From: Lachnospiraceae bacterium
Lineage (GTDB): Bacteria > Bacillota > Clostridia > Lachnospirales > Lachnospiraceae
DNA: 41,036 nt
Assembly (NCBI GenBank): GCA_024685495.1
Contig: JAIKVT010000150.1
Location: 1 to 41,036, forward strand
Direction of reading: 5' to 3'
The notes under the pieces were generated by a model, which was given only the letters and a program-made list of their open reading frames with translations, ran no database searches and was not told the DNA's origin. The translations under genes were made by a program, and so were the position numbers. Positions within the stretch are counted from its first letter, which is position 1. Every line of letters begins with the position of its first letter. Below, piece after piece: positions 10,890-41,036 of the stretch.

Positions 10890-10924
10890 TGAGTTTGTTA
10901 TAGCGTTTATTTGGAGGATAGAAT

Positions 10925-11365: not shown

Positions 11366-11454
11366 TATATGAAGTAATATTTGTACTACAGAGTATCAAT
11401 TGATTATTGAAGTAGTAATTAATTAATTCATTAAATGATTTTCAGGAGTAGATT

Positions 11455-11772
11455 ATGGACATTAATGCAATTAATGCGATGTATAAGACAACTAATACAC
11501 CTGCAAGCGGTTACGGAACCAATCCTGTTGAAGAGGCTGGTGGTAACAGCTTTGACAGTGTACTTAATTCTGTAATTAATATGGTCGGAGAGACTAATAC
11601 ATTACAGAATAATGCTTCAGCGGAAGAAATCAAATTTGCTCTGGGCGAATCAGACAATACACATGATTTGTTGATTGCTGAGCAGAAAGCAACTGTTGCA
11701 TTACAGTACACGGTTGCCGTAAGAGATAAGTTCTTAGACGCATATAAAGAACTAATGAATATGCAGATGTAA
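11455..11772 (+). CDS. fliE: Flagellar hook-basal body complex protein FliE
   Basis: C-terminal HDLLIAEQKATVALQYTVAVRDKFLDAYKELMNMQM. Confidence 0.93.
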   Translation: MDINAINAMYKTTNTPASGYGTNPVEEAGGNSFDSVLNSVINMVGETNTLQNNASAEEIKFALGESDNTHDLLIAEQKATVALQYTVAVRDKFLDAYKELMNMQM

Positions 11773-11950
11773 TTAGTAGTTTTAGCAGATTTGCAGCAAA
11801 TATTAGTAGATTTAATGTAGTTGCAGCAAAGTAGAGCAGATTTAATAGATTTGCAGCAAATATTAGTAGATTTAATGAAGTTGCAGCAAAGTAGAGCAGA
11901 TTTAATAGATTTGCAGCAAAGTAGAGCAGATTTAATAGATTTGTAGCAAA
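11771..11950. repeat. Six tandem 30-bp units between fliE and fliF
   Basis: Units end in ttgcagcaaa at 11800, 11830, 11860, 11890, 11920 and (ttgtagcaaa) 11950; two subtypes, gtagagcagatttaatagat- and tattagtagatttaatg[t/a]ag-. Confidence 0.96.
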
Positions 11951-12001
11951 GGATAACAGAAAATATTAAAATTTGGCAGTATATTTAGGGGATGATACAT
12001 T

Positions 12002-13603: not shown

Positions 13604-13605
13604 AA

Positions 13606-14616
13606 ATGGCAGCATCTGATGATTTAAGTGGTGTTCAGAAAGCGGCTGTACTTCTAATATCTTTAGGGCCTGAGAAGTCGGCTGATATATTTAAGCACCT
13701 CAAAGAAGATGAAATTGAAGAATTGACTTTAGAGATAGCTAATACCAGAAGTATCTCACCTGAGGTAAAGGATGCGGTAATAGACGAATTCTATCAGGTG
13801 TGTCTCGCTCAGCAGTATATTGCTGAAGGTGGTATAGGTTATGCTAAAGAATTGTTAGAGAATGCACTTGGTGATGACAAAGCACATGATGTCATCACCA
13901 AGTTAACTGCGTCTTTACAGGTACGTCCTTTTGAGTTTATCAGAAAGACTGAGCCGGGCCAGGTTCTTAACTTTATTCAGGATGAGCATCCGCAGACTAT
14001 TGCTATGATACTTTCTTATCTGGCTCCGGCTCAATCATCCATGATTCTTAGTGCGCTAAATCCTGAGATGCAGGCTGATGTCGCAAGAAGAATTGCACTT
14101 ATGGATAGAACAAGTCCTGAAGTTATCAAGGAAGTTGAGAAAGTATTAGAGCGTAAGCTTTCTTCTCTTATCAATCAGGATTATACGATTGCAGGTGGTG
14201 TTGATTCTATCGTATCAATTCTTAATGCGGTTGACAGAGGAACTGAGAAGAGAATAATGGAAGCATTAGAGATTGAAGAGCCCGAACTTGCTGAAGAGAT
14301 TCGTAAGAAAATGTTCGTATTCGAGGATATCTTGTTGCTTGACGATCGTTCAATTCAAAGAGTTCTTCGTGATGTTGATAATAATGAACTTGCTAAAGCT
14401 CTTAAAGGTGCCAATGAAGAAGTTCAGAACTGTATCTTCCGTAATATGTCTTCACGTCTTGCTACGATGGTTAAGGAAGATATGGAATTTATGGGTCCTG
14501 TACGTATGAAGGACGTAGAAGAATCACAGCAGATTATCGTTGGAATTATCAGAAAGCTCGAGGATCAGGGTGATATTGTTGTATCTCGTGGCGGAGGTGA
14601 CGATTTAGTTGTCTAA
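13606..14616 (+). CDS. fliG: Flagellar motor switch protein FliG
   Basis: VQKAAVLLISLGPEKSADIFKHLKEDEIEELTLEIA; C-terminal FEDILLLDDRSIQRVLRDVDNNELAKALKG. ATG at 13606 preferred over TTG at 13594. Confidence 0.97.
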   Translation: MAASDDLSGVQKAAVLLISLGPEKSADIFKHLKEDEIEELTLEIANTRSISPEVKDAVIDEFYQVCLAQQYIAEGGIGYAKELLENALGDDKAHDVITKLTASLQVRPFEFIRKTEPGQVLNFIQDEHPQTIAMILSYLAPAQSSMILSALNPEMQADVARRIALMDRTSPEVIKEVEKVLERKLSSLINQDYTIAGGVDSIVSILNAVDRGTEKRIMEALEIEEPELAEEIRKKMFVFEDILLLDDRSIQRVLRDVDNNELAKALKGANEEVQNCIFRNMSSRLATMVKEDMEFMGPVRMKDVEESQQIIVGIIRKLEDQGDIVVSRGGGDDLVV

Positions 14617-15502
14617 TGATAATGTATTAAAACCTTTTTTTACAATATTTGAGAACGAAAGCGGAACTTCCAGAGAGATAGATTCAAATGATCTTGTAGA
14701 AGAGAAGATCACCGAATTTAGAAAAAAGGAAGAGGAAACCCGCCGTCGTAAAGAAAAAGAGCGTCTTGAGAATATGACTCCCGAAGAACGGGAGGAATAT
14801 GAACAAGAGCAGCCCGATGATTTAGACGGATTATTTCAAGATTTCGATCCTGAAGCCGATGACGATGGTATGTCTATGTCGATGGATATGGATATTACTA
14901 ATGACTTAGTTAATCAGGCACAGGAAGAAGCAGATAATATTCTGGCTGAAGCTAATGCAAGAGCAGATGAGATTATGGCCGATGCTACAACTACGGCAGA
15001 ATCAATGAAAGAACAGGCGATTAAAGAAGGTCAGAAGCAGGGTTATGATATGGGTCAGGCTTTGGCAACCGGTGAGGTTGAAACTGCCAAAGCCGAGATG
15101 AATGCCGAGATTGAGCGAATCAGGCAAGAGTATATTGATAAAGAAATAGAAATGGAGAAAGACGTTCTCGATGTTGTGTGTGATGTCATGAGCAAGGTGT
15201 TTATGATAGAGTTCGGAGACAAGAAAGAGATTCTTCTTCATCTGTGTGAAAATGCGATAGCTAATGTCGAGAGTTCTAAGACATTAATTATAAGAGTTAA
15301 TGAGAATAATAAAGACTACATTAACGAGAATAAAGAAATGATTCAAGACAAAGTGGGCGAGAATGTCCAACTTGATATAGTAATGGATCCTTTACTTCAA
15401 GACGATCAATGTATTATTGAATGTGATGGTGGAATAATTGATTGCAGCATTGGAGTGGAATTAGATAATTTTATCAAAGATTTAAGAGCACTTAGCATTT
15501 AA
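14609..15502 (+). CDS. fliH: Flagellar assembly protein FliH-like
   Basis: Position between fliG and fliI; coiled-coil A/E-rich middle; TTG start overlapping the fliG stop. Confidence 0.8.
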   Translation: MSNDNVLKPFFTIFENESGTSREIDSNDLVEEKITEFRKKEEETRRRKEKERLENMTPEEREEYEQEQPDDLDGLFQDFDPEADDDGMSMSMDMDITNDLVNQAQEEADNILAEANARADEIMADATTTAESMKEQAIKEGQKQGYDMGQALATGEVETAKAEMNAEIERIRQEYIDKEIEMEKDVLDVVCDVMSKVFMIEFGDKKEILLHLCENAIANVESSKTLIIRVNENNKDYINENKEMIQDKVGENVQLDIVMDPLLQDDQCIIECDGGIIDCSIGVELDNFIKDLRALSI

Positions 15503-15605
15503 TAATCAGACTTATGATTATAAAGCACTTGGCATTGAATTATTTTTATAGATTTACAAGCATTTAATATTTAATATAAATGCATTTTTATTAGGCACGT
15601 GGCTT

Positions 15606-16907
15606 ATGATTGATACTAAGAAATATTATACACTTTTAGAAAATACTTATTTTGATAGGCTTGGTAAGGTCTCTAAAATAGTTGGTTTGACAATCGAATC
15701 AATTGGGCCGGATGCCAAGCTTAATGATTTATGTGAGATAATTGCAGAAGACGGTAAGAGGATTAAGGCAGAGGTAGTAGGCTTTCGTGATAAAAGCCTG
15801 CTTTTGATGCCTTTTGATTCTGTTGAGGGTGTCGGTGTAGGATGTATGGTTGAGAATACGGGTAAGCCGCTTACAATTCCGGTAGGTGACGAACTGTTAG
15901 GCCATACTATTGATGGTGTAGGAAGAGTTGATGACGGAAGTATCTTAGAGCTCGAGGAAGAATATCCTGCAGAAGCTGCTCCGCCTGATCCAATGGACAG
16001 AGTAATTATATCAGAGGTGTTACCGCTTGGAGTTAAGGCCGTAGATGGTCTGATAACGGTCGGCAAAGGTCAAAGAATTGGAATTTTTGCCGGTTCCGGT
16101 GTTGGTAAAAGTACATTAATGGGAATGTTCGCACGTAATACGAAGGCTCAGGTCAATGTAATTGCGCTTATAGGAGAGCGTGGTCGTGAGGTTAGAGAAT
16201 TCGTCGAAAATGACCTTGGTGAAGAAGGTATGGCCAGATCTGTAGTAGTAGTTGCTACAAGTGATAAGCCTGCACTTATTCGTAATAAAGCGGCGAAGAC
16301 TGCAACATCCATTGCTGAATATTTTAGAGATCAGGGTAAAGACGTGCTGCTTATGATGGACTCTCTTACACGTTTTTCAATGGCACAAAGAGAGATAGGA
16401 TTAGCATCGGGCGAGCCTCCTGTTACAAGAGGATATCCGCCGTCAGTTTATTCGGAGATGCCAAAGCTTTTAGAAAGAGCCGGTAATTCTGATAAGGGTT
16501 CCATAACAGGATTATATACGGTACTTGTAGACGGTGATGATTTTAATGAGCCTATTACAGATACCGCAAGATCGATATTAGACGGTCATATTGTATTAGA
16601 CCGTAGGCTTGCACAACGAAATCATTATCCGGCAATTGATGTCTTACAAAGCATTTCCAGAGTTATGTCTGCCGTTGCAGACAGAGAGCATAAGAGTGCG
16701 GCAGGTAAGATGAAAAATGTACTTGCAACATACGCCGAAGCAGAAGACCTTATTAATATTGGAGCTTACAAGAATGGGTCTAATAAGAATATTGATTATG
16801 CTATTGAGAAAATTGATCAGGTTAATGAATTTCTTTTACAGGAGACACATACAAAATACGAATTTGACGATGAGATACAGACATTAGAGGATATGTTCAA
16901 AGAGTAG
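15606..16907 (+). CDS. fliI: Flagellum-specific ATPase FliI
   Basis: GIFAGSGVGKSTLMGM Walker A, LIGERGREVREF, LLMMDSLTRFSMAQREIGLA. Confidence 0.97.
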   Translation: MIDTKKYYTLLENTYFDRLGKVSKIVGLTIESIGPDAKLNDLCEIIAEDGKRIKAEVVGFRDKSLLLMPFDSVEGVGVGCMVENTGKPLTIPVGDELLGHTIDGVGRVDDGSILELEEEYPAEAAPPDPMDRVIISEVLPLGVKAVDGLITVGKGQRIGIFAGSGVGKSTLMGMFARNTKAQVNVIALIGERGREVREFVENDLGEEGMARSVVVVATSDKPALIRNKAAKTATSIAEYFRDQGKDVLLMMDSLTRFSMAQREIGLASGEPPVTRGYPPSVYSEMPKLLERAGNSDKGSITGLYTVLVDGDDFNEPITDTARSILDGHIVLDRRLAQRNHYPAIDVLQSISRVMSAVADREHKSAAGKMKNVLATYAEAEDLINIGAYKNGSNKNIDYAIEKIDQVNEFLLQETHTKYEFDDEIQTLEDMFKE

Positions 16908-16920
16908 ATAGGTATATTCT

Positions 16921-17376
16921 ATGGCAAAATTCAGATATAGGATGCAAAGTATCCTTGACATCAAAGAAAAAATTGAAAGCCAGGAGAAGATTGCTTACTC
17001 TCAAGCCAATGCTGAATTGCAGGTTGAGCAGGATAAGCTTACTAAGCTTATGATAAGAAGAGCAGGATATGAGAGAGACCTAAAAGCAGCTACGGTCGGA
17101 GATTTGGACTTTAACGAGATTAAAAGACTTAAAGCAGCAATCGAGACTATGAAGGTTTTGGTAAGAGAACAGATGATGAACGTGCATATAGCAGAAAAGC
17201 GCGTCGAAGAAGCCAGAGCCAGACTTGATGCGGTCATGAAAGAGAGAAAGACGCATGAGAATCTTAAGGAGAAAGCATTTGAAGAATTTAAAGCCGAGAT
17301 GAATGCGGAAGAGAATAAAGTTACTGACGAGTTAGTCAGTTATACATATGGTAAGAACGAGGATGGAGAAGAGTAA
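16921..17376 (+). CDS. fliJ: Flagellar export protein FliJ
   Basis: FRYRMQSILDIKEKIESQEKIAYSQA; coiled coil; directly after fliI. Confidence 0.9.
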   Translation: MAKFRYRMQSILDIKEKIESQEKIAYSQANAELQVEQDKLTKLMIRRAGYERDLKAATVGDLDFNEIKRLKAAIETMKVLVREQMMNVHIAEKRVEEARARLDAVMKERKTHENLKEKAFEEFKAEMNAEENKVTDELVSYTYGKNEDGEE

Positions 17377-18200
17377 TGGCTGACCAGGATAAAAAAGAAG
17401 AAAAGAAAAAGAAAAAGGCTGAGAAGAAAGAGCAGAAGAAAAAAGAAAAAGAGAATAAAAAGAAAAAAGGATCTGAAGGAGACGATGATGACGAAGAAGA
17501 AGGTTCCGGTAAGGGGCTGGTTGTTTTTGTTGCCATTTTGATCTTTCTTATTTGGATGGTCATACTTGGTCTTCTTATCAAAATGGATGTAGGCGGATTT
17601 GGTTCTACCGTTCTTTATCCAATACTAAAAAATGTACCTGTTGTTAATAAGATTCTTCCTGAAGTGGAAGAGTATGCCAAAGAAGATGCACAGTATAGCT
17701 TTGCTTCCGTAGAAGATGCCGTTAAAAGAATTAAAGAATTAGAGGCTGAACTTGCAGCCGCAAAATCTTCCGGAGGTGTTGACAGTGCACGCCTTGCAGA
17801 ACTTGAGGCACAGGCGATTGAACTTCAGACTTATAAACAAAATCAACAAAAGTTTGAAGAAGAGAAAGAAAAATTCTATCAAGAGGTTGTTTTTTCCGAC
17901 AAAGCGCCCGATATAAATGAATATAAGAAGTATTATGAGTCAATTCAGCCATCAAATGCTGAGGCAATTTACAAGCAGGTAGTAGAACAGACTACACAAG
18001 ATGAGCAGATTAAGCAATACGCTTCAACATATTCAAGCATGAAGCCGGCACAGGCAGCGGGAATATTTAATACGATGACTGATAATCTTGCTTTGGTAGG
18101 TAAGATATTATGGGCTATGGATGCTTCTTCCCGTGGTAAAATCTTAGGCGCTATGAATGCCGATACGGCAGCACAAATAACCAAAATTATGGAGCCTTAA
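17376..18200 (+). CDS. MotE-like flagellar protein (TM plus MgtE-N-like C-terminus) with Lys-rich then Asp/Glu-rich N-terminus
   Basis: K/E-rich N-terminus, one TM (GLVVFVAILIFLIWMVILGLLI), coiled coil, C-terminal MKPAQAAGIFNTMTDNLALVGKILWAMDASSRGKILGAMNADTAAQITKIM. Confidence 0.75.
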   Translation: MADQDKKEEKKKKKAEKKEQKKKEKENKKKKGSEGDDDDEEEGSGKGLVVFVAILIFLIWMVILGLLIKMDVGGFGSTVLYPILKNVPVVNKILPEVEEYAKEDAQYSFASVEDAVKRIKELEAELAAAKSSGGVDSARLAELEAQAIELQTYKQNQQKFEEEKEKFYQEVVFSDKAPDINEYKKYYESIQPSNAEAIYKQVVEQTTQDEQIKQYASTYSSMKPAQAAGIFNTMTDNLALVGKILWAMDASSRGKILGAMNADTAAQITKIMEP

Positions 18201-18294
18201 TTAAAAGATTATTTAAGCGGGTCAACCGTTTTATGATAACGCATCCTAAGGGATATGTTATATATAACAATTTAATAAGGAAAGGAGGAATTGT

Positions 18295-19977
18295 ATGACT
18301 AGTGGAAATGTTGCTAACATAGGTCCTAATATCATGGTTAACACGAAGACTGTTTCAAAAGATGATGACAAGTCTTTAGGTTTTCTTGATGTTATGAACA
18401 AGAATGTTGCAAAAAGTAACCGGGATTTACAGTCGCAAGATTCGTCTAAAGAAGTTAAAGCTCCTGAAAAGAAGATTAACGAGAAAGATGATTCTAAAGC
18501 AGTAGATGCTTCTAAAGAGACAGCAAAAGAAGATAAGACGAATAAAACCGATAAGGTAGAAGATACTGAGAAGACTACAAAACTTGAAAAGCCCGGTAAA
18601 GCTGAACAGACAGATAAGACTGAAGCTACAGATGTTAAGCCTGAAGATGCAGCTATGATTAGTGAAGAGATGGCAACAGTGGCTGAAGCAACAGAAGTCT
18701 TAGAACTTCCGCCGGAAGTTATGGAACTTGTTAATGAAGTTCTTAATAATTTCGAAAGTGAAGTAAAAGATGTTTTAGTTCAAGCGCTAGGTATTACAGA
18801 AGAGGAATTAAGTGATGTTATGGCAGATATGAATATTACATTTGCTGATTTACTTAATCCTAAGCAGGTAACAGAGCTCATGGTTGAGGCTACTAACGTA
18901 GAGGATAGCGTATCGCTTGTACTTGATGAGAATTTATCTGATGCATTATCACAGATAAGAGAGTTAAGCACAAATGTTATCGATAAGACCGGACTTGAAG
19001 CACCTGTAATCCAAGAAGCAGTAAACCAATCAGGTAAGGGTATTGAGATTCCTAAGGAAATGCTTAATGCAAATCCCAATCAAAATCTTGATATCGATCC
19101 TAATCTTCAAACGGCTAATGTAGGCGAAGAGGTTGATATGACTAAAGTGCCAAAAGAGGTATTACAGTCTAATCCCGAAATGGCTAAGCCGGTTATGACA
19201 GATGGTAAAGAGGTTAAAGTAGAGGATATTCCTGATGATGAGAAGCCTGTAGTTGTTAAAAACGATCAGACTACTGTAAGCGAGAATGAAGAGTCAACCG
19301 AGACTGAAGTAAGTGATAACACATTTACGACAAAACAAACGACTGAGAATAACTCAGACAACTCAAATAGTTTCACAAGACACGATAATCGTCAGGAGAC
19401 AGGCAGACAGTTTAACACAGATAACATCGTAGTTAATAATCAAAATGTTCAACCTGAAGCAAATGTTACTGCAGAAGCTAAACCTGTTATCACAAGATTT
19501 ACAACAATGCAGATGATAACTCAGATTACCGAAGCAGCAAGAATTAATCTAAGCGATGAAACAACAAGTATAGAGATGATTCTTAATCCTGAGTCATTAG
19601 GAAAGATTTATCTTAACGTATCTCAGAAGCAGGGAGCTTTACATGCACAGATTGTTGCACAGAATGAAGCGGTTAAAGAAGCTTTAGAGAATCAGATAGC
19701 ATTACTTAAAGAGAATCTCAATAAGGCAGGAGTTAAAGTAGAAGCTGTTGAAGTATCTGTAGGAACTCATGAATTTGAGAGAAATCTTGAGGAAGGCATG
19801 CATCAGCAGGAAGAGCAGGCCAGACAGCAGGAAGAACAAGCCTCTAATATGAGGAGAAAGCCCGTAAGTATTAATCTTAATAATCTTGATGAGTTACAGG
19901 GACTTATGTCTGAAGAAGACAAACTTGTAGCACAGATGATGAAAGATCAAGGCAACTCAATGAATTTACAGGCTTAG
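18295..19977 (+). CDS. fliK: Flagellar hook-length control protein FliK
   Basis: Low-complexity acidic N-terminus; C-terminal SIEMILNPESLGKIYLNVSQKQGALHAQIVAQNEAVKEALENQIALLKENLNKAGVKVEAVEVSV (Flg_hook). Confidence 0.92.
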   Translation: MTSGNVANIGPNIMVNTKTVSKDDDKSLGFLDVMNKNVAKSNRDLQSQDSSKEVKAPEKKINEKDDSKAVDASKETAKEDKTNKTDKVEDTEKTTKLEKPGKAEQTDKTEATDVKPEDAAMISEEMATVAEATEVLELPPEVMELVNEVLNNFESEVKDVLVQALGITEEELSDVMADMNITFADLLNPKQVTELMVEATNVEDSVSLVLDENLSDALSQIRELSTNVIDKTGLEAPVIQEAVNQSGKGIEIPKEMLNANPNQNLDIDPNLQTANVGEEVDMTKVPKEVLQSNPEMAKPVMTDGKEVKVEDIPDDEKPVVVKNDQTTVSENEESTETEVSDNTFTTKQTTENNSDNSNSFTRHDNRQETGRQFNTDNIVVNNQNVQPEANVTAEAKPVITRFTTMQMITQITEAARINLSDETTSIEMILNPESLGKIYLNVSQKQGALHAQIVAQNEAVKEALENQIALLKENLNKAGVKVEAVEVSVGTHEFERNLEEGMHQQEEQARQQEEQASNMRRKPVSINLNNLDELQGLMSEEDKLVAQMMKDQGNSMNLQA

Positions 19978-19989
19978 AAAGGAGTTAAG

Positions 19990-20634
19990 ATGGCGTTAAT
20001 CCAGGAAATAAAAAACGGACAGGTTGTAGATAATTCGACTTCATCAAACGATTCAACTACTAAAGCGAACAATTTTGACAAAGATATGTTCCTTCAATTA
20101 TTAGTAGCAGAGATGAAATATCAAGATCCGTTAGAGCCTACAACCAATACAGAATATGTTTCTGAACTTGCCAGTTTTACACAGATTGAATCGACTCAGA
20201 ATGTACAGGATAAGATGGATGATATACAAGCATCAAGTTATGTTGGCAAGTACGTAATAATTAATACAACCGATTCATCAGGTGAACAACAATATGTATC
20301 AGGAAAGGTTGATTTCTTAGAGAAGACAGATGACGGATACATGGTATCAGTTAATGATGGATTATACAAACTTGAAGAGATTGAAACCGTAGCTGACGAG
20401 ACATATTATACCGCAATGATGACAACTAAAACCTTTGAAGACGCAGTTACAAAGTTACCTAATCTTCAGGCAGTTTCATTACAAGATGAAGAAAAAATCA
20501 GTGCTGTCAGATCTTTATATGACTCAATGGATGAATATACAAAGCAATTTATCAATTCTGATTCATATTCTACATTAGAAGCATTAGAAAATAGGATTGC
20601 AGCTCTAAAGTCTGAGGAAGAAACAACCGAATAA
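19990..20634 (+). CDS. flgD: Flagellar hook-capping protein FlgD
   Basis: FDKDMFLQLLVAEMKYQDPLEPTTNTEYVSELASFTQIE. Confidence 0.93.
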   Translation: MALIQEIKNGQVVDNSTSSNDSTTKANNFDKDMFLQLLVAEMKYQDPLEPTTNTEYVSELASFTQIESTQNVQDKMDDIQASSYVGKYVIINTTDSSGEQQYVSGKVDFLEKTDDGYMVSVNDGLYKLEEIETVADETYYTAMMTTKTFEDAVTKLPNLQAVSLQDEEKISAVRSLYDSMDEYTKQFINSDSYSTLEALENRIAALKSEEETTE

Positions 20635-20674
20635 TATAATAGGTGATAATTTTTCTAAGATAGGAGATGAACTT

Positions 20675-21070
20675 ATGAATGAGATTGGAAGTAACTTCGG
20701 CTCAATTCAACAGATTGCTGACACATATCTGAGTAATCAGACAAGCAAGTCGCGTGAATCTTCTACAGTCACTAATTCTTTTGAAGATGTCTTAAGGCAG
20801 AGAATAAGTGAAGAAAGCAAAGTTAAGTTTTCTAAACACGCTGCAGCAAGACTTGATGAGAGAAACATTTCTCTTTCAGAAGAACAGAACGTACGACTTG
20901 AGGCAGGAATTATGAAAGCCGGAGAGAAGGGAATTAATGATTCACTGGTGATTATGGACAGTTTGGCATTTATTGTAAATGTACCTAATCAGACAGTAGT
21001 AACAGCATTAGATCAAGATGAATCTAATGGTAACGTATTTACTAATATTGATGGAGCTGTTATAGCATAG
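20675..21070 (+). CDS. TIGR02530-like flagellar operon protein
   Basis: KFSKHAAARLDERNISLSEEQNVRLEAGIMKAGEKGINDSLVIMDSLAFIVNVPNQTVVTAL, located between flgD and flgE. Confidence 0.85.
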   Translation: MNEIGSNFGSIQQIADTYLSNQTSKSRESSTVTNSFEDVLRQRISEESKVKFSKHAAARLDERNISLSEEQNVRLEAGIMKAGEKGINDSLVIMDSLAFIVNVPNQTVVTALDQDESNGNVFTNIDGAVIA

Positions 21071-21090
21071 CTGGACCTTATGGAAGCTAT

Positions 21091-21142
21091 GGCCGCTGAC
21101 TGACAGAGGCGGCCGACGCAGCTCCTCCACATTACGAGGAGG
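21091..21142 (+). promoter_or_regulatory. Two tandem GC-rich hairpins in the flgE leader; the second contains the Shine-Dalgarno
   Basis: ggccgc(21091-21096)/gcggcc(21109-21114); ctcctc(21122-21127)/gaggag(21136-21141), where gaggagg is the SD for ATG 21152. Confidence 0.7.
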
Positions 21143-21151
21143 ACATGTATT

Positions 21152-22792
21152 ATGATGAGATCACTTTATTCTGGTGTATCAGGTCTTAAGACTCACCAGA
21201 CCAAGATGGATGTTATAGGTAACAACATCGCTAACGTTAACACTATTTCGTTCAAATCTTCTTCAACCACTTTTACTGATATCATGTATCAGACAACATC
21301 GGGCGCATCAGGTGCTACAGCCACTACTGGTGGTAAGAATGCTAACCAGATTGGTCTTGGTGTATCAAGTGGTGCAACTAAAGTAAGTATTACTTCTGCA
21401 GGAGCAGCTCAGTCAACAGGACAGGCTCTTGATGTTAAGCTTACTGATTCTAACAATACCAACTTCTTTATTGTTAATAATGGTAGTGAGAATTTATTTA
21501 CACGTGCAGGTTCATTCTACATTGACGGTAATGGTAACCTCTGTATGAGTTCTACAGGTTATATGGTTCAAGGATGGCAGGTAGACACAACTTCAGGCGC
21601 TGCTGTAATCAAGAAGGATACAGTATCTCCACTTCGTGTAATGAATGCCGCTAATCTTACTTCACCCCCTGAAGCAACAACTAATGCTAATGTTGCAGGA
21701 GTTATCGATAAGAATGATACTAATGTTACATCTGATTCAGGTTATGCAATGAGTCTTTCATTCTACGATAACTTAGGATATCAGTATACAGCAAAGTTCG
21801 CTGTTAAGGCTACTGACGCTGATAATGGAACATTTACAGTTGAGCTTGCTAATATCTATGATGATGATAATAAAGATATTCTTGCTGAGTATGTTGCAGG
21901 AGGCAAAAAAGTCAGTGATATATTTGGTCAGGATACTCAAGCAACAAAGAGTTTTGCACTTCAGGGAGCGTTTGTATACGATGCTGCTTCATCTACCGTA
22001 CGGACAGTTTACGAAGGTAAGACATATGCAAGAAGCGGAGATATAACAGAAGTTGGCGGTGTAAAAGGATGTCAATTCACATGTACAACCGATACTTCTA
22101 CAAAATTCTTCTCATTAGCTGAGATGTATGGTGTAGATGATGCCGCAATTGCAGATGGAACATTAACAATTAGTGCAACAGACGGTTCTTTACAAAAGAC
22201 TTATGATACAACTAATTTTACATTACAGTTTAACAAAGCTGACGGATCGTTTTCATATATCGGAGCTGCAGGAGCTAAGTCTCAATCACTTAATATGACT
22301 AAGTTTGGTGTTCAATTTGCAGATATTGACGTTAACTTCCAGAATTCACTTAACTATGATAACGGTGGTACATCAACACTTGCAATTGATAAAGGTGACA
22401 TAACAGGAACTATTGGTGTAGGTAAGAAACTCGGTACTATGACAGGTATGTCAATTGACGGTACAGGTTGTATATACGGTTCTTATGACAATGGTAATAC
22501 GGTACTTCTTGGACAAATCGCAGTAGCGCAGTTTGCTAACGCATCAGGTCTTGAGAGTACAGGTAACAGTTGCTATCGTACAACTCTCAACTCAGGCGAT
22601 TTCGACGGAATCGGCGTTGAGGTTACAGCCGATGGTGGTAGCATGAGTACAGGTCAGTTGGAAATGTCTAACGTTGACCTTTCAGCTGAATTTACCGATA
22701 TGATTACTACTCAGAGAGGTTTCCAGGCTAACTCAAGAGTTATCACAACAAGTGACACAATGCTTGAAGAACTTGTTAACCTTAAGAGATAA
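21152..22792 (+). CDS. flgE: Flagellar hook protein FlgE
   Basis: MRSLYSGVSGLKTHQTKMDVIGNNIANVNTISFKSS; C-terminal VDLSAEFTDMITTQRGFQANSRVITTSDTMLEELVNLKR. Confidence 0.97.
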   Translation: MMRSLYSGVSGLKTHQTKMDVIGNNIANVNTISFKSSSTTFTDIMYQTTSGASGATATTGGKNANQIGLGVSSGATKVSITSAGAAQSTGQALDVKLTDSNNTNFFIVNNGSENLFTRAGSFYIDGNGNLCMSSTGYMVQGWQVDTTSGAAVIKKDTVSPLRVMNAANLTSPPEATTNANVAGVIDKNDTNVTSDSGYAMSLSFYDNLGYQYTAKFAVKATDADNGTFTVELANIYDDDNKDILAEYVAGGKKVSDIFGQDTQATKSFALQGAFVYDAASSTVRTVYEGKTYARSGDITEVGGVKGCQFTCTTDTSTKFFSLAEMYGVDDAAIADGTLTISATDGSLQKTYDTTNFTLQFNKADGSFSYIGAAGAKSQSLNMTKFGVQFADIDVNFQNSLNYDNGGTSTLAIDKGDITGTIGVGKKLGTMTGMSIDGTGCIYGSYDNGNTVLLGQIAVAQFANASGLESTGNSCYRTTLNSGDFDGIGVEVTADGGSMSTGQLEMSNVDLSAEFTDMITTQRGFQANSRVITTSDTMLEELVNLKR

Positions 22793-33253: not shown

Positions 33254-33604
33254 ATGAATCAAATAGTAAAAACATATTTAGCGATATTTTTAATGTTAAT
33301 AATTATTCTTGTTGGCGCAGGACTTATAGTATGTGCTCTTGATGCACAAAAAGCAGAAAAGACAAATAGTTCTTATGCTGATACTATAGCGGCACATAAT
33401 TATTCTACGTCAGTGATCAATCAGTGTGTTGATGAAGCGTCAAAAAATGATTATATATTGTCAATCAAAAGATATGACACAAACAGTGACGGTTATATGG
33501 ACATATGTGAATGTATTCTGGAATACGATTATTCTTTAAAGTTTTTAAATTCAAATGATACAACGGCAAATGGTAAACATCATTTTTCAAGGATAATGAA
33601 ATAG
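33254..33604 (+). CDS. Pilin/TadE-like single-TM membrane protein
   Basis: VKTYLAIFLMLIIILVGAGLIVCALDAQKAE TM segment, short extracytoplasmic domain; clear SD aaagga. Confidence 0.55.
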   Translation: MNQIVKTYLAIFLMLIIILVGAGLIVCALDAQKAEKTNSSYADTIAAHNYSTSVINQCVDEASKNDYILSIKRYDTNSDGYMDICECILEYDYSLKFLNSNDTTANGKHHFSRIMK

Positions 33605-33616
33605 GAGGTAAAAAAT

Positions 33617-33727
33617 ATGAAATATATTATTGATGAATATGGAGAAGCGATAGTAAGTGCAATTATTGGAATGTTGATGATTGGAATATGTATATCATCA
33701 TTTATTTATATAACAATAAATAGATAG
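33617..33727 (+). CDS. 36-aa membrane mini-protein MKYIIDEYGEAIVSAIIGMLMIGICISSFIYITINR
   Basis: Not in the ORF track; SD ataggagg; N-terminus shared with the next two ORFs; stop supplied by IS-junction sequence. Confidence 0.75.
   Translation: MKYIIDEYGEAIVSAIIGMLMIGICISSFIYITINR
33715..33722. repeat. Left copy of 8-bp target site duplication (aataaata)
   Basis: Identical to 35640-35647, directly abutting the IS ends. Confidence 0.85.
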
Positions 33728-33820
33728 TGTCAAGTGACCTATGAAAAAACAGAGTCAAAGAAATAGGCTCGAATGAACCTTGAAAACTGTAGATATAGAT
33801 AACGAAAAGCTCTCCGAGGG

Positions 33821-34000
33821 CTTAGGGCTCTGCCCTAAGAACCCGCAAGGGACTCGTCCCTTGACTCGTAACCTGGGCTCTGCCCAGACCCGTCCTCGCC
33901 GAAGGCAGGGAAAGGCAGTTAGCCTTTCCTTTTAGATAGGATGCACCGAGAACCTTTTGTAAAGGGACTTTCGCGGCATATCCTCACCGGCTTTGCCGGT
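33821..34000. repeat. Cluster of five compact GC-rich hairpins in non-coding IS DNA
   Basis: cttagggctctgccctaag 33821-33839; aagggactcgtccctt 33847-33862; ctgggctctgcccag 33873-33887; ggaaaggcagttagcctttcc 33909-33929; accggctttgccggt 33986-34000. Confidence 0.85.
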
Positions 34001-34041
34001 TCCGGTATTCCACGGATCCCTTGACAACGGTTCCGCTCCAT

Positions 34042-35508
34042 TTAGGCTGAAGTTTGTTGTTGCATTTTTAGGATTGTTTGTTGACCAAGGAAGATTAGTA
34101 GTTGCCACTTGCCTGGCATATTTTCGCCGTGAGAGATTATATCGTCTTCAACAGGTGGCTTATATCGATTGTGTTTATGAGGTCTTAAGAAGTTATAATA
34201 AGCAACCCATAATGAAAGATCATAGTTAGCGCCATCGTAATTATCAAAGCCGTTCGTTGGTCGATATGAAGCTTTGTAAGTACGGTTTAATCGTTCAATC
34301 ATCTGCTTGTAAGGTCGGAATTCTTTAGATACTTCATCGTCATTAGTAAGACCTATGACCTTAGTTATATCAAAGTTAAAACGCTGACCAAACTTATAGA
34401 AGAACTGTTGGGCGGCGAGCGGATATGCACTGTAGCCATCGGCAATGAATTTAAAGTTTTTAGGAAGTTCTTTAAGATGCTGAAAAGCCATTCTCATTGC
34501 CATAATACAGGGACCGACTCCACGATTATCTGAGACTTGATAACCAACGATAGCTCGAGTGGCGGCGTTCATAATAAACCAAATGTAACCGGTGATACCA
34601 CGAACTTTGATGTAGGTTTCGTCGGCGGTATAGGCGAGGTCGTTAGGATCTTTTTCGTATGGGTATGTATCAACAAAAGGCTTTATGCATGTGGCGGCAG
34701 TTTTACAGTAATTAGCAACCATTTGATGAGATATAGAAATGCCGTGGATGTCCTTTAACGCTTGGGCTGTTTTACGAAGGGATAAGCCCAGATTGACACG
34801 ATAGGAAAGACAAAGAGACATAATGTAAGCGTTATTCTTTTTGAACTTTAATGATGATGCATTCTTTGGTAAAGATGTTATATCTATCTTGAAGAAGTCA
34901 ATTACGAACTCACGATAGATGTAGTGAAGTTTATATTTATGTTTGCCATGTTCTTCGTTTAAATCATCCTTATCAACTTTACTAAGGTTGTGAAGATAGT
35001 AGGGACATTTTGGGTTAATGCATTTGTGGATGATGAAGTGCTTTCGATTCTTTTTGGGAGAAAGAGAATGCGAGCAATAAGGACACTTTAAGGAGTGAGT
35101 CTTACTAAAACGATTTTCGTATGGAGAAAACTTTGTGTCACATATTTTGCACATTAGTTGACCAGCCTTACCGTTATTGCGATACAGATAGGGTTGAGGA
35201 GCTTTGCAAGAAGGGCAGGTACAGTATTCAGGGATGTTACACTCAGAGCGACGATTGATAGGCTTAATAGGCTTTCCGTATTTCCATTCGTAATAACTGT
35301 TAAGGTCTTTCCAATTCCAGTCTTGCTGATGATATATGATTTTAGGAAGCTTATCAATTTTAAACTTTTGATATTTGGGAGAATGAGAATCATCAAAAGC
35401 CCATTGCTTTAATGGTATATATCTGCAGATAAAATTTAAAAGCCAACGATTTTGTTGGTATAGTTGTTGAATTAATTGAATTAAATAAAGTATAATGTCC
35501 ATGAGCAT
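34042..35508 (-). CDS. DDE transposase, IS6/IS240-like catalytic domain with N-terminal zinc-ribbon region
   Basis: Cys pairs CPSCKAPQP/CKICDTKF and CPYCSHS; catalytic D (TADETYIKVRG), D (IADGYSAY), E (MIERLNRTYK). Confidence 0.88.
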   Translation of the reverse strand: MLMDIILYLIQLIQQLYQQNRWLLNFICRYIPLKQWAFDDSHSPKYQKFKIDKLPKIIYHQQDWNWKDLNSYYEWKYGKPIKPINRRSECNIPEYCTCPSCKAPQPYLYRNNGKAGQLMCKICDTKFSPYENRFSKTHSLKCPYCSHSLSPKKNRKHFIIHKCINPKCPYYLHNLSKVDKDDLNEEHGKHKYKLHYIYREFVIDFFKIDITSLPKNASSLKFKKNNAYIMSLCLSYRVNLGLSLRKTAQALKDIHGISISHQMVANYCKTAATCIKPFVDTYPYEKDPNDLAYTADETYIKVRGITGYIWFIMNAATRAIVGYQVSDNRGVGPCIMAMRMAFQHLKELPKNFKFIADGYSAYPLAAQQFFYKFGQRFNFDITKVIGLTNDDEVSKEFRPYKQMIERLNRTYKASYRPTNGFDNYDGANYDLSLWVAYYNFLRPHKHNRYKPPVEDDIISHGENMPGKWQLLIFLGQQTILKMQQQTSA

Positions 35509-35571
35509 TTAACTCCTTTCGGGATGTGATTTAGCCAATGACATTATACCGAAAATGGGAGGTAAATGCTC
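35503..35571 (-). promoter_or_regulatory. Inverted repeat able to sequester the transposase SD and start codon, with a TATAAT between the arms
   Basis: Plus-strand arms gagcatttaactcc (35503-35516) and ggaggtaaatgctc (35558-35571), 13/14 complementary; minus-strand TATAAT at 35548-35543. Confidence 0.65.
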
Positions 35572-35639
35572 TTTTTATTTAAACCTCCCGAAAATAAAGG
35601 ATTTATAAACAAAAAAGGAGTGTCAGACTTGACACTACC

Positions 35640-35647
35640 AATAAATA
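35640..35647. repeat. Right copy of 8-bp target site duplication (aataaata)
   Basis: Matches 33715-33722. Confidence 0.85.
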
Positions 35648-35662
35648 TATAGGGGTGGAAAG

Positions 35663-35806
35663 ATGAAGCAAATAATTGACGAATATGGTGAGGCAATAAT
35701 AGGTGTAATAGCAACAGTATTAATACTTGGAATAGCATTTTTTCTGTTTAATCAGGGAGGAATAATTGAGCAGTTTTTCAGCCAGATAGCTAATAATGCA
35801 ATTTGA
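35663..35806 (+). CDS. 47-aa membrane mini-protein MKQIIDEYGEAIIGVIATVLILGIAFFLFNQGGIIEQFFSQIANNAI
   Basis: Not in the ORF track; preceded by aggggtgg; N-terminus paralogous to the 33617 and 35828 ORFs. Confidence 0.8.
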   Translation: MKQIIDEYGEAIIGVIATVLILGIAFFLFNQGGIIEQFFSQIANNAI

Positions 35807-35827
35807 ATGAAAGGGGGGAAAAGTTAA

Positions 35828-36706
35828 ATGAAGCAAATATTAGATGAATATGGTTCTACTATTATCACAACAATTGTAGGTGTAATTATTATAGCTGTTT
35901 TAGGTGTGGTGTCATTTAATGGGGCAGTAGGACTTATTAATATAGCGGGTAGGGAAACGAGTGATATTGCTGATAACGATACTAATATAGTACAGACAGT
36001 AACAACTGCGTCACTTGATAATCAGGCAGAATTAGCAGTGCCTGATGTTAGAGTAAAAACTAAACCTAAACTTGGAACTTCATATAAATTAACAGATGTT
36101 TTTGAACTTAATAATTGTGAAGAAAGTGCTTCTTTATCTGTTGCAGAAGCAACAACAGAATTAAATGATTCTTCAACAGATGCAATAGGAACAGGAATGA
36201 TTACATTAAACAGTGACACTATAAAGTTCAATAATGTTGATACTTTCTATATAACACTAGAAATTAGACAAGATAGCAGAAAAATGTCAAGAACACTTGA
36301 AGTGACATCGTTAGTTCCAGATCCATACTACGATATGCAAAAAGTAAATGGTTATTGGTGTTATTGTAAAAATGAATGGAATGTAGAAAAGGGAGGGTAC
36401 ACTAGAACTGTAATTAGACAATATCCGTACAGCAAGACAGTTCACTATGAAGACGGTCCACCAACACAGCCAAATGTTGGTTCATATATAAATTATTATT
36501 TATATTATGACGAGTCAAAGAAATGCCTACGTTATAATATGTACGACCATTATTGTTCAGGTTGGCACGCAAATCAGGTTTATCGTAACGGTGAATGGGT
36601 AATTACCGGTTACAGTATAGACGGTTTCGATAGTTACCGTAATTCCGGTACCGAGGCAATTTGGTGTCTTAATAAACAAACAGGACTGCCTACTTGGGTT
36701 AGATAA
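35828..36706 (+). CDS. Membrane-anchored secreted protein with the same MKQILDEYG N-terminus and a large extracytoplasmic domain
   Basis: MKQILDEYGSTIITTIVGVIIIAVLGVVSFNGAVGLI; SD aaagggggg; aromatic-rich C-terminal domain. Confidence 0.75.
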   Translation: MKQILDEYGSTIITTIVGVIIIAVLGVVSFNGAVGLINIAGRETSDIADNDTNIVQTVTTASLDNQAELAVPDVRVKTKPKLGTSYKLTDVFELNNCEESASLSVAEATTELNDSSTDAIGTGMITLNSDTIKFNNVDTFYITLEIRQDSRKMSRTLEVTSLVPDPYYDMQKVNGYWCYCKNEWNVEKGGYTRTVIRQYPYSKTVHYEDGPPTQPNVGSYINYYLYYDESKKCLRYNMYDHYCSGWHANQVYRNGEWVITGYSIDGFDSYRNSGTEAIWCLNKQTGLPTWVR

Positions 36707-36731
36707 AAACACTTAATAAAGAGGATAATAA

Positions 36732-37337
36732 ATGAAAAACATAGTTTATGGTGTAGTAATAATATTACTTGGTATAGTTATTGCCCTAACAATTATAACG
36801 GTAACAGGTACAATGAACCGTGAAGTTGAAATTGAAGATTCGTTACAAATAGCAGTAGAAAAAAGTGTAGATGCGTGTACTACAAAGCATAATTATAGTC
36901 TTGATAATACAGATCAATTTGTAGCCGATTTAATGGTTGAATTATCAAATGCTATTGAAAATGACTCAGCATTAGATATACAAATTATGGGTATTGATAA
37001 AGATAAGGGTATGCTTTCTGTCAGAGTAGTCGAATACTACACAACAGCAATAGGTGTACCTAAAACCGCAACTTGTGAATCAACTGCAATTTTTGACAGA
37101 GGTGACGCTAATAATATTAAGTCGGGAATTACTATTACTTTTGTAGATGACGATGGTTCATACTTAGGCGAACAGACAGTTGACGCAACAAAAGAAATTA
37201 AAGCAATAATAACACCTGCAAAAGAAGGAAAGACATTTAACGGTTGGTTAAATACTAAGACAAATAAAAATGTTGGTATAAATTTAGGTAAGGCTGGTGA
37301 AGATATTACATTTAAGGCAACTTATATCTTAGTTTAG
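36732..37337 (+). CDS. Pilin-like membrane protein with InlB-B/Flg_new-like C-terminal domain
   Basis: N-terminal TM; C-terminal GITITFVDDDGSYLGEQTVDATKEIKAIITPAKEGKTFNGWLNTKTNKNVGINLGKAGEDITFKATYI fits the InlB B-repeat pattern. Confidence 0.65.
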   Translation: MKNIVYGVVIILLGIVIALTIITVTGTMNREVEIEDSLQIAVEKSVDACTTKHNYSLDNTDQFVADLMVELSNAIENDSALDIQIMGIDKDKGMLSVRVVEYYTTAIGVPKTATCESTAIFDRGDANNIKSGITITFVDDDGSYLGEQTVDATKEIKAIITPAKEGKTFNGWLNTKTNKNVGINLGKAGEDITFKATYILV

Positions 37338-37349
37338 AATTATATTCCA

Positions 37350-37384
37350 AAAATATCAGTAGCCTGCCAAATAACTGATATTTT
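37350..37384 (+). terminator. Putative terminator hairpin after 36732 ORF
   Basis: aaaatatcagt ... actgatatttt; 11-bp stem, short T tract. Confidence 0.6.
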
Positions 37385-37551
37385 AAGAATTTAATAACTA
37401 AATTGCACTAAAACCTATACTGTAATCAGGCTAATTTTCACAAAAATAAAGTTTTAAAAAAAAACAGCGTATGGTTTTAGCCCCTATCTCAGTATAATTC
37501 TAGTAGAAAGAAAAACATACAATAATTCTTTCATGAATTGGAGGACGAAAA

Positions 37552-38523
37552 ATGAGAACAAGAAGTAAACTAATAGTAGGTATAATGGTATTAACACTGG
37601 CAATAACAACTATATGCTTTATACCAACATCAGCAAACGCTGAAACAACAGGACAGCTTATGTATAGAATGTATAATCCAAATAGTGGCGAACACTTTTA
37701 TACAGCAAACGCCGGAGAAAAAGACAATCTCGTAAACGCCGGTTGGAAGTGGGAAAACTTTGGCTGGATAGCAGCTGAAAGTGGAAACCCCGTATATCGC
37801 GTATATAACCCCGTTGCAGGCGACCATCACTATACTATGAACGAGATGGAGAAAAACCTTTTAGTATTCCTTGCAGGTTGGCAAGACGAGGGTATCGGTT
37901 GGTATTCAACCACAACAGAAAATGAAGATACCACACCACTTTATAGATTATATAGCCCAAGTGCAAAATCGGGAGCACACCACTATACTTTAAGTGCCGC
38001 CGAGCGTGATATGTTAATAAACGCAGGTTGGCAAGACGAGGGTACTTGTTGGCTGTCAAACTATAATATAGAAGTATCAGGCTATAAAGAAGCTACTTGT
38101 TGTGAAGAAGGCACAACGGGCGATGTATTAAATAAACGTACAAGCGAAGTATTATTCAAAGGTCAGGTAATTCCTAAAACAAACAATCACCAAAACGTAA
38201 CACACTATGACGCTGTGACGGAAGTGAGATATTTAGATAAACTAAGAAAAGCATATTGTAAAGACGACGGAACATATATTGGCTTTAGAGGAGAAGAAGA
38301 TACAAAAATAATTCAACACTTTAATACATATCACGGATACAACCTACCACTTAATGCTGATTTATGGACCGACGAACAAATACAACAATGGTTTGATATA
38401 TGTCAAAATCATTTAATATACGAAGATGTACCCGCACAAGAAGTAATAGTTGTAGTATCACCCGAGTATTGGAAGTGTAATGACTGTGGAAAAATAAGCT
38501 ACGACAATAAAAATTGGCAGTAA
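37552..38523 (+). CDS. Secreted protein with three DUF5648-like repeats and a C-terminal unique domain
   Basis: Signal peptide to ANAET; repeats MYRMYNPNSGEHFYTANAGEKDNLVNAGW, VYRVYNPVAGDHHYTMNEMEKNLLVFLAGWQDEGIGW, LYRLYSPSAKSGAHHYTLSAAERDMLINAGWQDEGTCW. Confidence 0.85.
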   Translation: MRTRSKLIVGIMVLTLAITTICFIPTSANAETTGQLMYRMYNPNSGEHFYTANAGEKDNLVNAGWKWENFGWIAAESGNPVYRVYNPVAGDHHYTMNEMEKNLLVFLAGWQDEGIGWYSTTTENEDTTPLYRLYSPSAKSGAHHYTLSAAERDMLINAGWQDEGTCWLSNYNIEVSGYKEATCCEEGTTGDVLNKRTSEVLFKGQVIPKTNNHQNVTHYDAVTEVRYLDKLRKAYCKDDGTYIGFRGEEDTKIIQHFNTYHGYNLPLNADLWTDEQIQQWFDICQNHLIYEDVPAQEVIVVVSPEYWKCNDCGKISYDNKNWQ

Positions 38524-38550
38524 ACTAATTTCAAAAAATAACAAATAATC

Positions 38551-38579
38551 AAAGGGCAGGCAAATAACCTGTCCTTTTT
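38551..38579 (+). terminator. Terminator after DUF5648-like gene
   Basis: aaagggcagg-caaata-acctgtccttttt. Confidence 0.85.
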
Positions 38580-38671
38580 GTGTGTAAAAATAAATAAAAC
38601 CCTAAAACTCCGTCACTACCTTATATATATAAAGATAATAATACAAAAATCATAAAAGGAGAGCATCGCAT

Positions 38672-41036
38672 ATGAAACCGAAGCGACTAATTAAATCAAG
38701 TATAGCTTTTACACTAGCATTTACTATGGTTCTAACATCAGGCATTGTAGCAAACGCCAATGAACTTAATGGTAGCGAAAAATATACTACTATTAGCGAA
38801 AACATAAAAGATATACTTCCTAAACAGACAGAAGAAATAAAGCAAGTAAACTCCATAGAAGAACTAGATACAAATGATACTATTGTAAAGGAATCAGATA
38901 GTATCTTTAAGTCGTGCCGACTTATAATCTATTCTGATAAAGAAATGGAGTTTGATAATGACTACATTAAGTCAGTACAAAAATATGATAACTTTTATGT
39001 CGTAGAATATGCGTCTGTAAAAGATACGGAAGATAGTTATAACAACTATAAAGAAGATGGCATTGATGTAGAAATAGACGAGGTAAAAGATACACCTGAG
39101 ATAGTAGAAAATAAGGCAAACAAAAATACCGAAGCCGAAGAAGATGTATCAAAAGAAGAAATAGCGACTACTAATACCGATAAAGATAAGCAAAATATAG
39201 ACGAAGCTAACGCTGACTCAAAAATAGTAACCGTTGCTATTTTAGATACGGGGCTTAATGCTGGAGAAGATATTTTTGACAATAGAATAGTAGAAGGTAA
39301 AAACTTTGTTGACGGCGATAACACTAACGATAATAACGGACACGGAACTGCTATGTCAAAAATAATGCTAGAAGAAACTAATGATCAGGAAGTTATCACA
39401 AAAATAATGCCAATAAAGGTACTTAATGATGAAGGCGTTGGTACAACTCTATCAGCATATAAAGGAATAAAATATGCAATAGAAAAAAATGTAGATGTAA
39501 TTAACTTATCTTTGTCAGGACTTGGCAAAAGTAAGTTATTAGAGTCTGCTATAAATGACGCAATAAACCATAATATTCCCGTAGTAGTCAGCGCAGGAAA
39601 TGATAACAAGGAAATCACAGAATATACACCGGCAAATATTGAAAGTACAATAACAGTATCAAGTACTGAAAATATAGATAATAAATACACTAAGACTATA
39701 TATTCAAACTTTGGCTCTGACACAAATAACATTGATTTTGCTACAAAAGGTTTTTATGAATATACAAGAACAATAAATAATAAGCAAGTAAATACAAGCA
39801 TAAGTGGTACATCTGTATCAAGTGCTTATGTAACAAGTTATGTGGCATTACTAAAACAATTAGCATTAACAGATGACGACGAAAATAATGACAACTTAAA
39901 CTTTAATGATATATATAACAGTTTAGTTTTAAGTTCTACAAAAATAAATGAAACTAATTCTGATTATACTGAAAAAGAAAACAAATATTATTTTGGTAAT
40001 GGCTACCTAGATAAGAGTAATTTTGTTATACAAAAAAGTGAAGAAGAAGTAACTCCACTTCCCGTAGAAGAAGTAAAAGAAACAGACGAAAACATAACAT
40101 TAAACACACAAGCAACAAATAGATTTATGTCCGCTTGTATAATTGACGGACACGGCTTTTATAATTCAAGTAAAGGCTTAGAAGCCCTAGCCGCTCAAAG
40201 TGCTTGTGGTTATGCTAGTAGTTGGGAAGATAAAGGTGCATTTTTAGACGCAATACTAGGTACTTATATAACAGATTACCAAAATCATACAATAACATTT
40301 AACGACGCATTTGAAATGGATAATAAGGGTGCAACAATAAACCTATACGGCACAAAGACTGTAAATTGCGTTGACAGTGATGGCGTTTCAGGTGACGGTA
40401 TTGGTGAGAAAAGTGCAGACGGTTACGCCCCGGCCGTAACTGTTAACGGAAATATAACTTTTGTGGGAGGAAGTTTATCATCAGCTAAAGCACAAGACTC
40501 AACTAATCTTTCATATATAAATCTTAATGAGGGCGTCTTAAATTATCGCCCCGCACTCGAAAACAACGGCACTGTTACATTAAATAATACAGGACTTCGT
40601 GCGGGAAGCAGAGCAGAATATGTAGTAAAAAATAACGCAGGACATACAATGACACTTACAGGTGGTGGTGCGTCAATAGGTGCTGCTAACGCAAGTGCAA
40701 GTAAGCCTAATATTATAAATGAAGGTACTTTAACTATTAGTGAAAACTCAACAAAGAAATATCAGTTAGATAAGAGCTACACGCCAAGCGGTTTTCAAAA
40801 TAGTGAAGCAATCCGAAATAATGGTACTTTATATGTAACAGGTGGTGTAATTGGACACGCTACTGTGGGAATAAAAAATAATACAACCAATGCTTATATA
40901 TCGGGTGGTACAATTTTTGCCTGTTCAGTCGGTATAGAAAATGCAAGTAGCAAACGATTAAATCAAAGTAGCGGTTCTATAACAAGTAACACCTATGGCG
41001 TAGTAAACAATAGTGGTGCAACTTATATAAAAAGTG
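38672..41036 (+). CDS. Secreted S8 subtilisin-like protease with C-terminal beta-solenoid-like repeats, 3' partial at window edge
   Basis: Missing from the ORF track because it has no stop in the window. Signal peptide MKPKRLIKSSIAFTLAFTMVLTSGIVANA; catalytic Asp VAILDTGLN, His NGHGTAMSK, oxyanion Asn VVSAGND, Ser SGTSVSSAY; then NNGTLYVTGGVIG-type repeats. Confidence 0.88.
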   Translation, partial: MKPKRLIKSSIAFTLAFTMVLTSGIVANANELNGSEKYTTISENIKDILPKQTEEIKQVNSIEELDTNDTIVKESDSIFKSCRLIIYSDKEMEFDNDYIKSVQKYDNFYVVEYASVKDTEDSYNNYKEDGIDVEIDEVKDTPEIVENKANKNTEAEEDVSKEEIATTNTDKDKQNIDEANADSKIVTVAILDTGLNAGEDIFDNRIVEGKNFVDGDNTNDNNGHGTAMSKIMLEETNDQEVITKIMPIKVLNDEGVGTTLSAYKGIKYAIEKNVDVINLSLSGLGKSKLLESAINDAINHNIPVVVSAGNDNKEITEYTPANIESTITVSSTENIDNKYTKTIYSNFGSDTNNIDFATKGFYEYTRTINNKQVNTSISGTSVSSAYVTSYVALLKQLALTDDDENNDNLNFNDIYNSLVLSSTKINETNSDYTEKENKYYFGNGYLDKSNFVIQKSEEEVTPLPVEEVKETDENITLNTQATNRFMSACIIDGHGFYNSSKGLEALAAQSACGYASSWEDKGAFLDAILGTYITDYQNHTITFNDAFEMDNKGATINLYGTKTVNCVDSDGVSGDGIGEKSADGYAPAVTVNGNITFVGGSLSSAKAQDSTNLSYINLNEGVLNYRPALENNGTVTLNNTGLRAGSRAEYVVKNNAGHTMTLTGGGASIGAANASASKPNIINEGTLTISENSTKKYQLDKSYTPSGFQNSEAIRNNGTLYVTGGVIGHATVGIKNNTTNAYISGGTIFACSVGIENASSKRLNQSSGSITSNTYGVVNNSGATYIKS

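Follow-up and report, generated by a model that had tools for sequence, protein, structure and literature searches.

What is made by a row of surface-protein genes, three of which start with nearly the same short N-terminus? Positions 33254 to 41036 of the stretch analysed here raise this question. The whole stretch, called the window below, is the 41,036-nucleotide contig JAIKVT010000150.1 of a Lachnospiraceae bacterium (assembly GCA_024685495.1). The Lachnospiraceae are among the main bacteria of the gut and the rumen, and to our knowledge little is known about the way they get surface machines across the wall. An earlier note, made from the letters of the window, suggested that these genes encode subunits of a Tad-like pilus. 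Comparing the locus with related genomes, we propose that it is probably a cassette of genes for the subunits and the cargo of a compact type IV filament machine of a Tad-like kind. The genes for the CpaF-like motor ATPase of this machine, its tandem TadB/TadC-type platform and a further small protein, Mini0, lie at another site of the genome. That the cassette belongs to a Tad-like machine of some kind is very probable.

The mini-proteins

The open reading frames that the note had called at 33254 (116 amino acids, aa; here TM110), 33617 (36 aa; Mini1), 35663 (47 aa; Mini2), 35828 (292 aa; Mini3), 36732 (201 aa; TM200), 37552 (323 aa) and 38672 (running off the contig end) were all found. Mini1 (33617..33727, MKYIIDEYGEAIV), Mini2 (35663..35806, MKQIIDEYGEAII) and Mini3 (35828..36706, MKQILDEYGSTII) are encoded on the plus strand and do have the near-identical N-termini ascribed to them, MK-x-I-[IL]-DEYG followed by one hydrophobic helix each. 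In Mini3 a variable exported domain is added to the DEYG N-terminus. Each of the three genes is preceded by a purine-rich ribosome-binding site, and the 41-kb window holds no further open reading frame with the motif. They are not three consecutive genes, as had been stated; a 1.9-kb insertion sequence at 33727..35635 separates the first from the second.

The motif M-[KR]-x-I-[IL]-[DE]-E-Y-G, counted only where a ribosome-binding site precedes it, has 64 hits in related loci that total 411 kb, compared with 0, 1, 0, 1 and 0 in five Markov shuffles and none on the opposite strand. In 80 further loci (1.01 Mb) the count is 216 versus 1 on the opposite strand. The consensus of the mini-proteins is M-K-E-I-[ILF]-E-E-Y-G-x-A-I-I. 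The lengths of Mini1 and Mini2 are identical in the cassettes of sister species. Ratios of non-synonymous to synonymous differences (pN/pS) are 0 for Mini1 and 0.06 for Mini2 between the sister genomes G002 and G005, 0.13-0.26 for Mini0, and 0.26-0.59, still below 1, between the window and its sisters. The conserved lengths and the pN/pS values below 1 indicate that the mini-genes are under purifying selection and encode real, translated proteins.

A Pfam search of the mini-proteins gave no convincing family and no pilin family that covers them. Homologues of Mini3 occur in the genus, and a search of 41 genomes with the 292-aa protein found relatives in the genus only; equivalents of 130-370 aa are present in most operons.

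Motor and platform

The note had also proposed to look for co-occurrence with Tad-type machinery, and this was found. In the sister species G002 and G005 the same cassette lies directly 3' of genes for a CpaF-type ATPase and a TadB/TadC-related platform. In G002 the genes run ppiA, Mini0 (56 aa), ATPase, platform, TM110, Mini1, Mini2, Mini3, TM200, subtilase, DUF5648 protein and AHCY. Across the Lachnospiraceae, mini-genes flank this ATPase.

The ATPase of G002 and G005 matches PF00437 (E 8e-21), and the ATPase profile matches the solved GspE2, VirB11, CpaF and FlaI. Its characteristic motifs (Walker A, acidic box, Walker B Glu and His box) are invariant; the Gly that normally precedes the Walker B Glu is mostly replaced by Ser. 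In a maximum-likelihood tree, 26 of 26 ATPases of this system fall beyond one branch (99/99), and 17 canonical TadA proteins of relatives stand apart (100/98).

The platform is a membrane protein of 453 aa. In hhalign comparisons its N-terminal half resembles canonical TadB (228 columns, E 9e-9). The C-terminal half matches both TadC (E 1.6e-5) and TadB (E 4e-5), and the two halves also match one another (E 3e-5); two unrelated alignments, A1 and A2, gave no match. The platform profile had no relevant match among PDB sequences. As judged from these alignments, the platform is a fused, tandem TadB-TadC-type protein.

Of 250 genomes sampled from the Lachnospiraceae, 31 have the platform, as do 8 of 8 genomes of the genus. 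A scan based on the ATPase gave 80 loci, mostly from rumen and gut Lachnospiraceae, and including Roseburia, Agathobacter, Lachnoclostridium phytofermentans, [Clostridium] fimetarium, Clostridium tyrobutyricum and Anaerobium. Gene content was counted in the 60 loci with enough flanking DNA. The platform is present in 60 of them, TM110 in 58, TM200 in 54 and Mini0, upstream of the ATPase, in 45; at least one downstream mini-gene is found in 53 and at least two in 44.

Some loci deserve separate mention. L. phytofermentans, C. fimetarium and C. tyrobutyricum have near-identical mini-proteins and ATPases (loci L167/L068, L162 and L177); this near-identity, which includes C. tyrobutyricum, by name a member of another family, suggests horizontal transfer. 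ParB- and ParM-like genes, named by eye, lie just upstream in L068. Genome G006 has a divergent second copy of the system (L088, G006:C17:25000-40000), in which the mini-genes have an unrelated ATPase-like gene (524 aa) between them. G120 and G131 (L062 and L063) have another operon order, with a MinD/TadZ-like gene and a large surface protein upstream of the ATPase. TadZ is not part of the locus; a MinD-like gene was noticed, by eye, upstream only in these two genomes.

It should be noted that dependence on a prepilin peptidase was considered as a test of the system and rejected. PF01478 is present in 37 of 37 genomes with the system and in 247 of 250 genomes of the family, and being nearly universal, its presence says nothing about dependence.

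TM110 and TM200

TM110 (33254..33604, plus strand) has an N-terminal membrane helix and a small alpha/beta domain. Its AlphaFold model consists of helices at residues 2-47 and 52-64 and three strands (mean predicted local distance difference test, pLDDT, 70). TM200 (36732..37337, plus strand) is a DUF5411-like protein with a long N-terminal helix and three strands, followed by an InlB B-repeat (mean pLDDT of the model 83). In brief, both models have an alpha-alpha-beta3 layout, in which a long helix at the N-terminus is followed by a short one and by three strands. The first 45 residues of TM110 and TM200 are related (E 1.7e-5).

The InlB-like domain that the note had seen in TM200 is supported by Pfam (E 2e-7) and by a PDB fold match (E 2e-5), and DUF5411 matches members of the TM200 family weakly (3 of 22, best E 7.7e-5). 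A Pfam search of TM110 gave no convincing family. The pilin or TadE label given to both proteins found no supporting profile or PDB match. The order of elements in these models, which are of moderate confidence, fits that of a type IV pilin, a long N-terminal helix packed on an antiparallel sheet. We use 'pilin-like' for this likeness in element order alone, because the pLDDT is moderate and no solved pilin was matched. TM110 is likely a minor or tip subunit.

The cargo and its C-terminal module

The last gene of the window (38672..41036, plus strand) encodes a secreted subtilase with a repeat region; the subtilase call of the note is confirmed by a match to Peptidase_S8 (E 7e-28). Contig C21 begins with the same 141 bases with which the window ends. 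The gene continues on C21, with its reading frame open for 1792 codons (1792 aa), and is followed by addB. A large protein with a signal peptide accompanies most operons of the system.

The subtilase ends in a C-terminal module, some 130-150 residues long, that is shared by secreted proteins of these operons which are otherwise unlike. It comprises an Ig-like stretch (tvtY.a.D..GN.t) followed by R-[FSY]-I-x..Y...S-x-W...Y...L. Two different seeds recovered the same 29-30 of 178 large open reading frames as carriers of the module, and the N-terminal parts of these proteins differ. The module is present in operon proteins from many genera, and a profile built without this genus recovers the cargo of the genus (E about 1e-12, with no reversed decoys). 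Its search against Pfam gave no convincing family. Among 39 genomes, strong matches (E below 1e-7) occur in 19 of the 26 with the platform and in 1 of the 13 without a platform hit. The sole genome of the latter kind, G008, is 74% complete, and its match directly follows the end of a TM200 gene. That the module links the cargo to the machine has, from these sequence comparisons, about an even chance of being correct.

Arrangement and movement of the cassette

In the genome of the window, contig C268 carries ppiA, Mini0 and the ATPase gene, which is cut by the contig end. The platform gene lies at the end of contig C143, with AHCY directly after it. An overlap between the two contigs was sought and none was found, so we infer their join from synteny alone. 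The cassette itself sits between aroK and addB, as it does in G004. Since it is located there, and AHCY directly follows the platform, the cassette has left the position between platform and AHCY. The same split is seen in G004, where the insertion sequence is missing. In G001 the subunits remain with the motor, and a gene beside addB encodes a cargo protein that ends in the shared C-terminal module. From these arrangements we suggest that the cassette, subunits and cargo together, moves between loci as a unit, which is new here.

Genome G003 retains motor, platform and Mini0 (locus L091) and lacks the cassette; no TM110 was found there, and it has no cargo-module protein. As Mini0 and the motor are kept in G003 without the cassette, they may have a use of their own.

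The genome of the window also encodes a canonical Tad locus (L020 and L023), with peptidases, TadA, TadB, TadC and an Flp with Glu at position +5, and a type IV pilus set (L019 and L021). With the present system, three filament systems would thus share one cell.

Insertion sequence and other features of the window

The insertion sequence inside the cassette (33727..35635; no strand assigned) has the ends GTGTCAAGT and ACTTGACAC and contributes the last base of the Mini1 stop codon. It occurs in one copy in this genome and is absent from the sister cassettes. Its transposase, encoded at 34042-35508 on the minus strand, is of the DDE type. Membership of the IS6 family was rejected, as the transposase reaches only 64 bits where the IS6 cut-off is 125 and the flanks are without an 8-bp duplication. 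An imperfect direct repeat of 17 bp (15 of 17 identical) borders the element at 33711-33727 and 35636-35652 and may be an old duplication or a chance likeness.

The gene at 37552..38523 (plus strand) encodes a secreted DUF5648 protein, as the note had assigned (E 2.6e-50). It is present at the locus of the sister species, is not a general part of the operons, and is regarded as accessory. A terminator-like hairpin, recognised by a consensus match only, lies 5' of the subtilase gene (38551..38577, plus strand). Elsewhere in the window, positions 10500-22792 hold a flagellar operon (FlgB, FlgC, FliE, FliF, FliG to FlgE, named by eye), followed by unrelated genes.

Proposed mechanism and alternatives

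We envisage the machine as follows. The mini-proteins would insert into the membrane with the N-terminus inside, and the ATPase would power the platform, which would draw them into a short and thin helical filament that crosses the Gram-positive wall. TM110, TM200 and Mini3 may make up a minor or tip complex. A giant surface protein exported by Sec, here the subtilase, might then be held and displayed, or pushed out, via the shared C-terminal module. That the mini-proteins are filament subunits is probable.

Several findings weigh against this proposal. An acidic residue at position +5 after the Gly is present in just 17 of 204 mini-proteins (absent in 92%), and in none of the three of the window. 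No prepilin peptidase is encoded inside the operons; PF01478 is found on other contigs or far off in all 37 genomes with the system, and a peptidase encoded there could act from outside the operon. The PDB fold search of TM110 and TM200 gave no pilin match. For 13 of 30 module members, the strict leave-one-out search, with all BLAST-similar members removed, fails. The 80 loci were gathered through an alignment of the ATPase, so the set does not test whether the ATPase is present; the other genes are not there by construction. Finally, the cassette of the window, separated from its motor and interrupted by an insertion sequence, may be decaying. The suggestion of Tad-like pilus subunits is thus partly supported: the co-occurrence with a Tad-type motor and platform speaks for it, and the stricter claim of class III prepilins is weakened by the rarity of an acidic residue at +5 and by the lack of a prepilin peptidase in the operons.

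The strongest of the alternatives, though less likely than not, is that the machine works as a secretion pump of the pseudopilus type, which would drive the cargo out, and not as a displayed pilus. A secretion function was predicted earlier for this type of operon from its gene context (PMC9523054), and the large signal-peptide protein with a common C-terminal module, encoded in most operons, would suit such a pump. On the other hand, Sec substrates in monoderm cells need no such pump, and giant repeat and solenoid proteins resemble proteins bound to the surface. The mini-proteins could instead be accessory membrane subunits, stator or adaptor, of the motor or platform, with any filament made from TM110 and TM200. 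The rarity of Glu at +5, the retention of Mini0 with the motor in G003 and the predicted models of TM110 and TM200, more pilin-like in their long N-terminal helix and alpha/beta domain, speak for this; the three to four paralogues per operon, one with an exported domain, fit co-assembled subunits better, and we regard an accessory role as unlikely. Still less likely is that the cassette of the window is a decaying, motor-less surface locus. Its separation from the motor and its split by the insertion sequence would fit decay, but the same genome has motor, platform and Mini0, all cassette reading frames are open, the cargo for 1792 codons, and G004 is split alike without an insertion sequence. 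Short hydrophobic proteins are frequently similar to each other, and no Pfam family fits the mini-proteins; even so, the probability that their N-termini are alike by chance is negligible given the motif counts (64 versus 0-1 and 216 versus 1), the fixed operon positions and the purifying selection. On the shuffle and opposite-strand counts we reject a chance likeness.

Returning to the filament machine, we tentatively speculate, at less than even odds, that it represents a separate class of type IV filament in monoderm gut bacteria, with three to four paralogous, possibly uncleaved mini-pilins and a giant secreted protein recognised by a common C-terminal module, subunits and cargo being mobile as a unit. 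If the main proposal made above is right, a widespread machine gains named subunits and a named class of cargo, and it would be a natural exception to the usual prepilin rules, a Glu at +5 and a peptidase of its own.

Comparison with known systems

The InlB B-repeat (List_Bact_rpt) is the same domain as that at the C-terminus of the protein encoded at 36732. Here it is part of a membrane-anchored protein of a filament-type operon, and no invasion function is implied.

The canonical Tad/Flp (type IVc) pilus, encoded in the genome of the window on contigs C148 and C113, likewise has a TadA/CpaF-type ATPase, a TadB/TadC platform and small one-helix subunits with a short charged leader that ends in Gly. 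It has one Flp, whereas the present system has three to four different mini-subunits, most of them without Glu at +5. In addition, the present ATPases form a separate clade, the platform is a single fused protein and the operon is without TadV. Imam et al. (2011) described Gram-positive tad-like loci without recognisable prepilins, some of them in Lachnospiraceae-related Clostridia (PMC3244431). Those were reported with homologues of tadV, tadZ and rcpC, which the present loci as a rule do not have.

The closest precedent is the operon that Miller, Stern and Burstein (2022) predicted from gene context to be secretion-related in Roseburia, Ruminococcus and Eubacterium (PMC9523054, Fig. 5a). As described there, it has 8-9 genes, among them CpaF, PilC/GspF, DUF5411 and a partially InlB-like protein, the others being left unresolved. 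The present loci have the CpaF ATPase, a PilC/GspF-type platform, a weak match to DUF5411 and the InlB-like domain, and occur in Clostridia including Roseburia. Judging from that description we take the two to be the same operon type, and since the operon was predicted in 2022, the system is not new as a prediction. The text on the operon in that paper does not describe a mini-protein family, a fused platform, a cargo module or movement of a cassette. The present analysis adds the mini-protein family, mostly without Glu at +5, and the cargo module that the secreted proteins share; it also adds the fused platform, the separate clade of the ATPases and the movement of the cassette as a unit.

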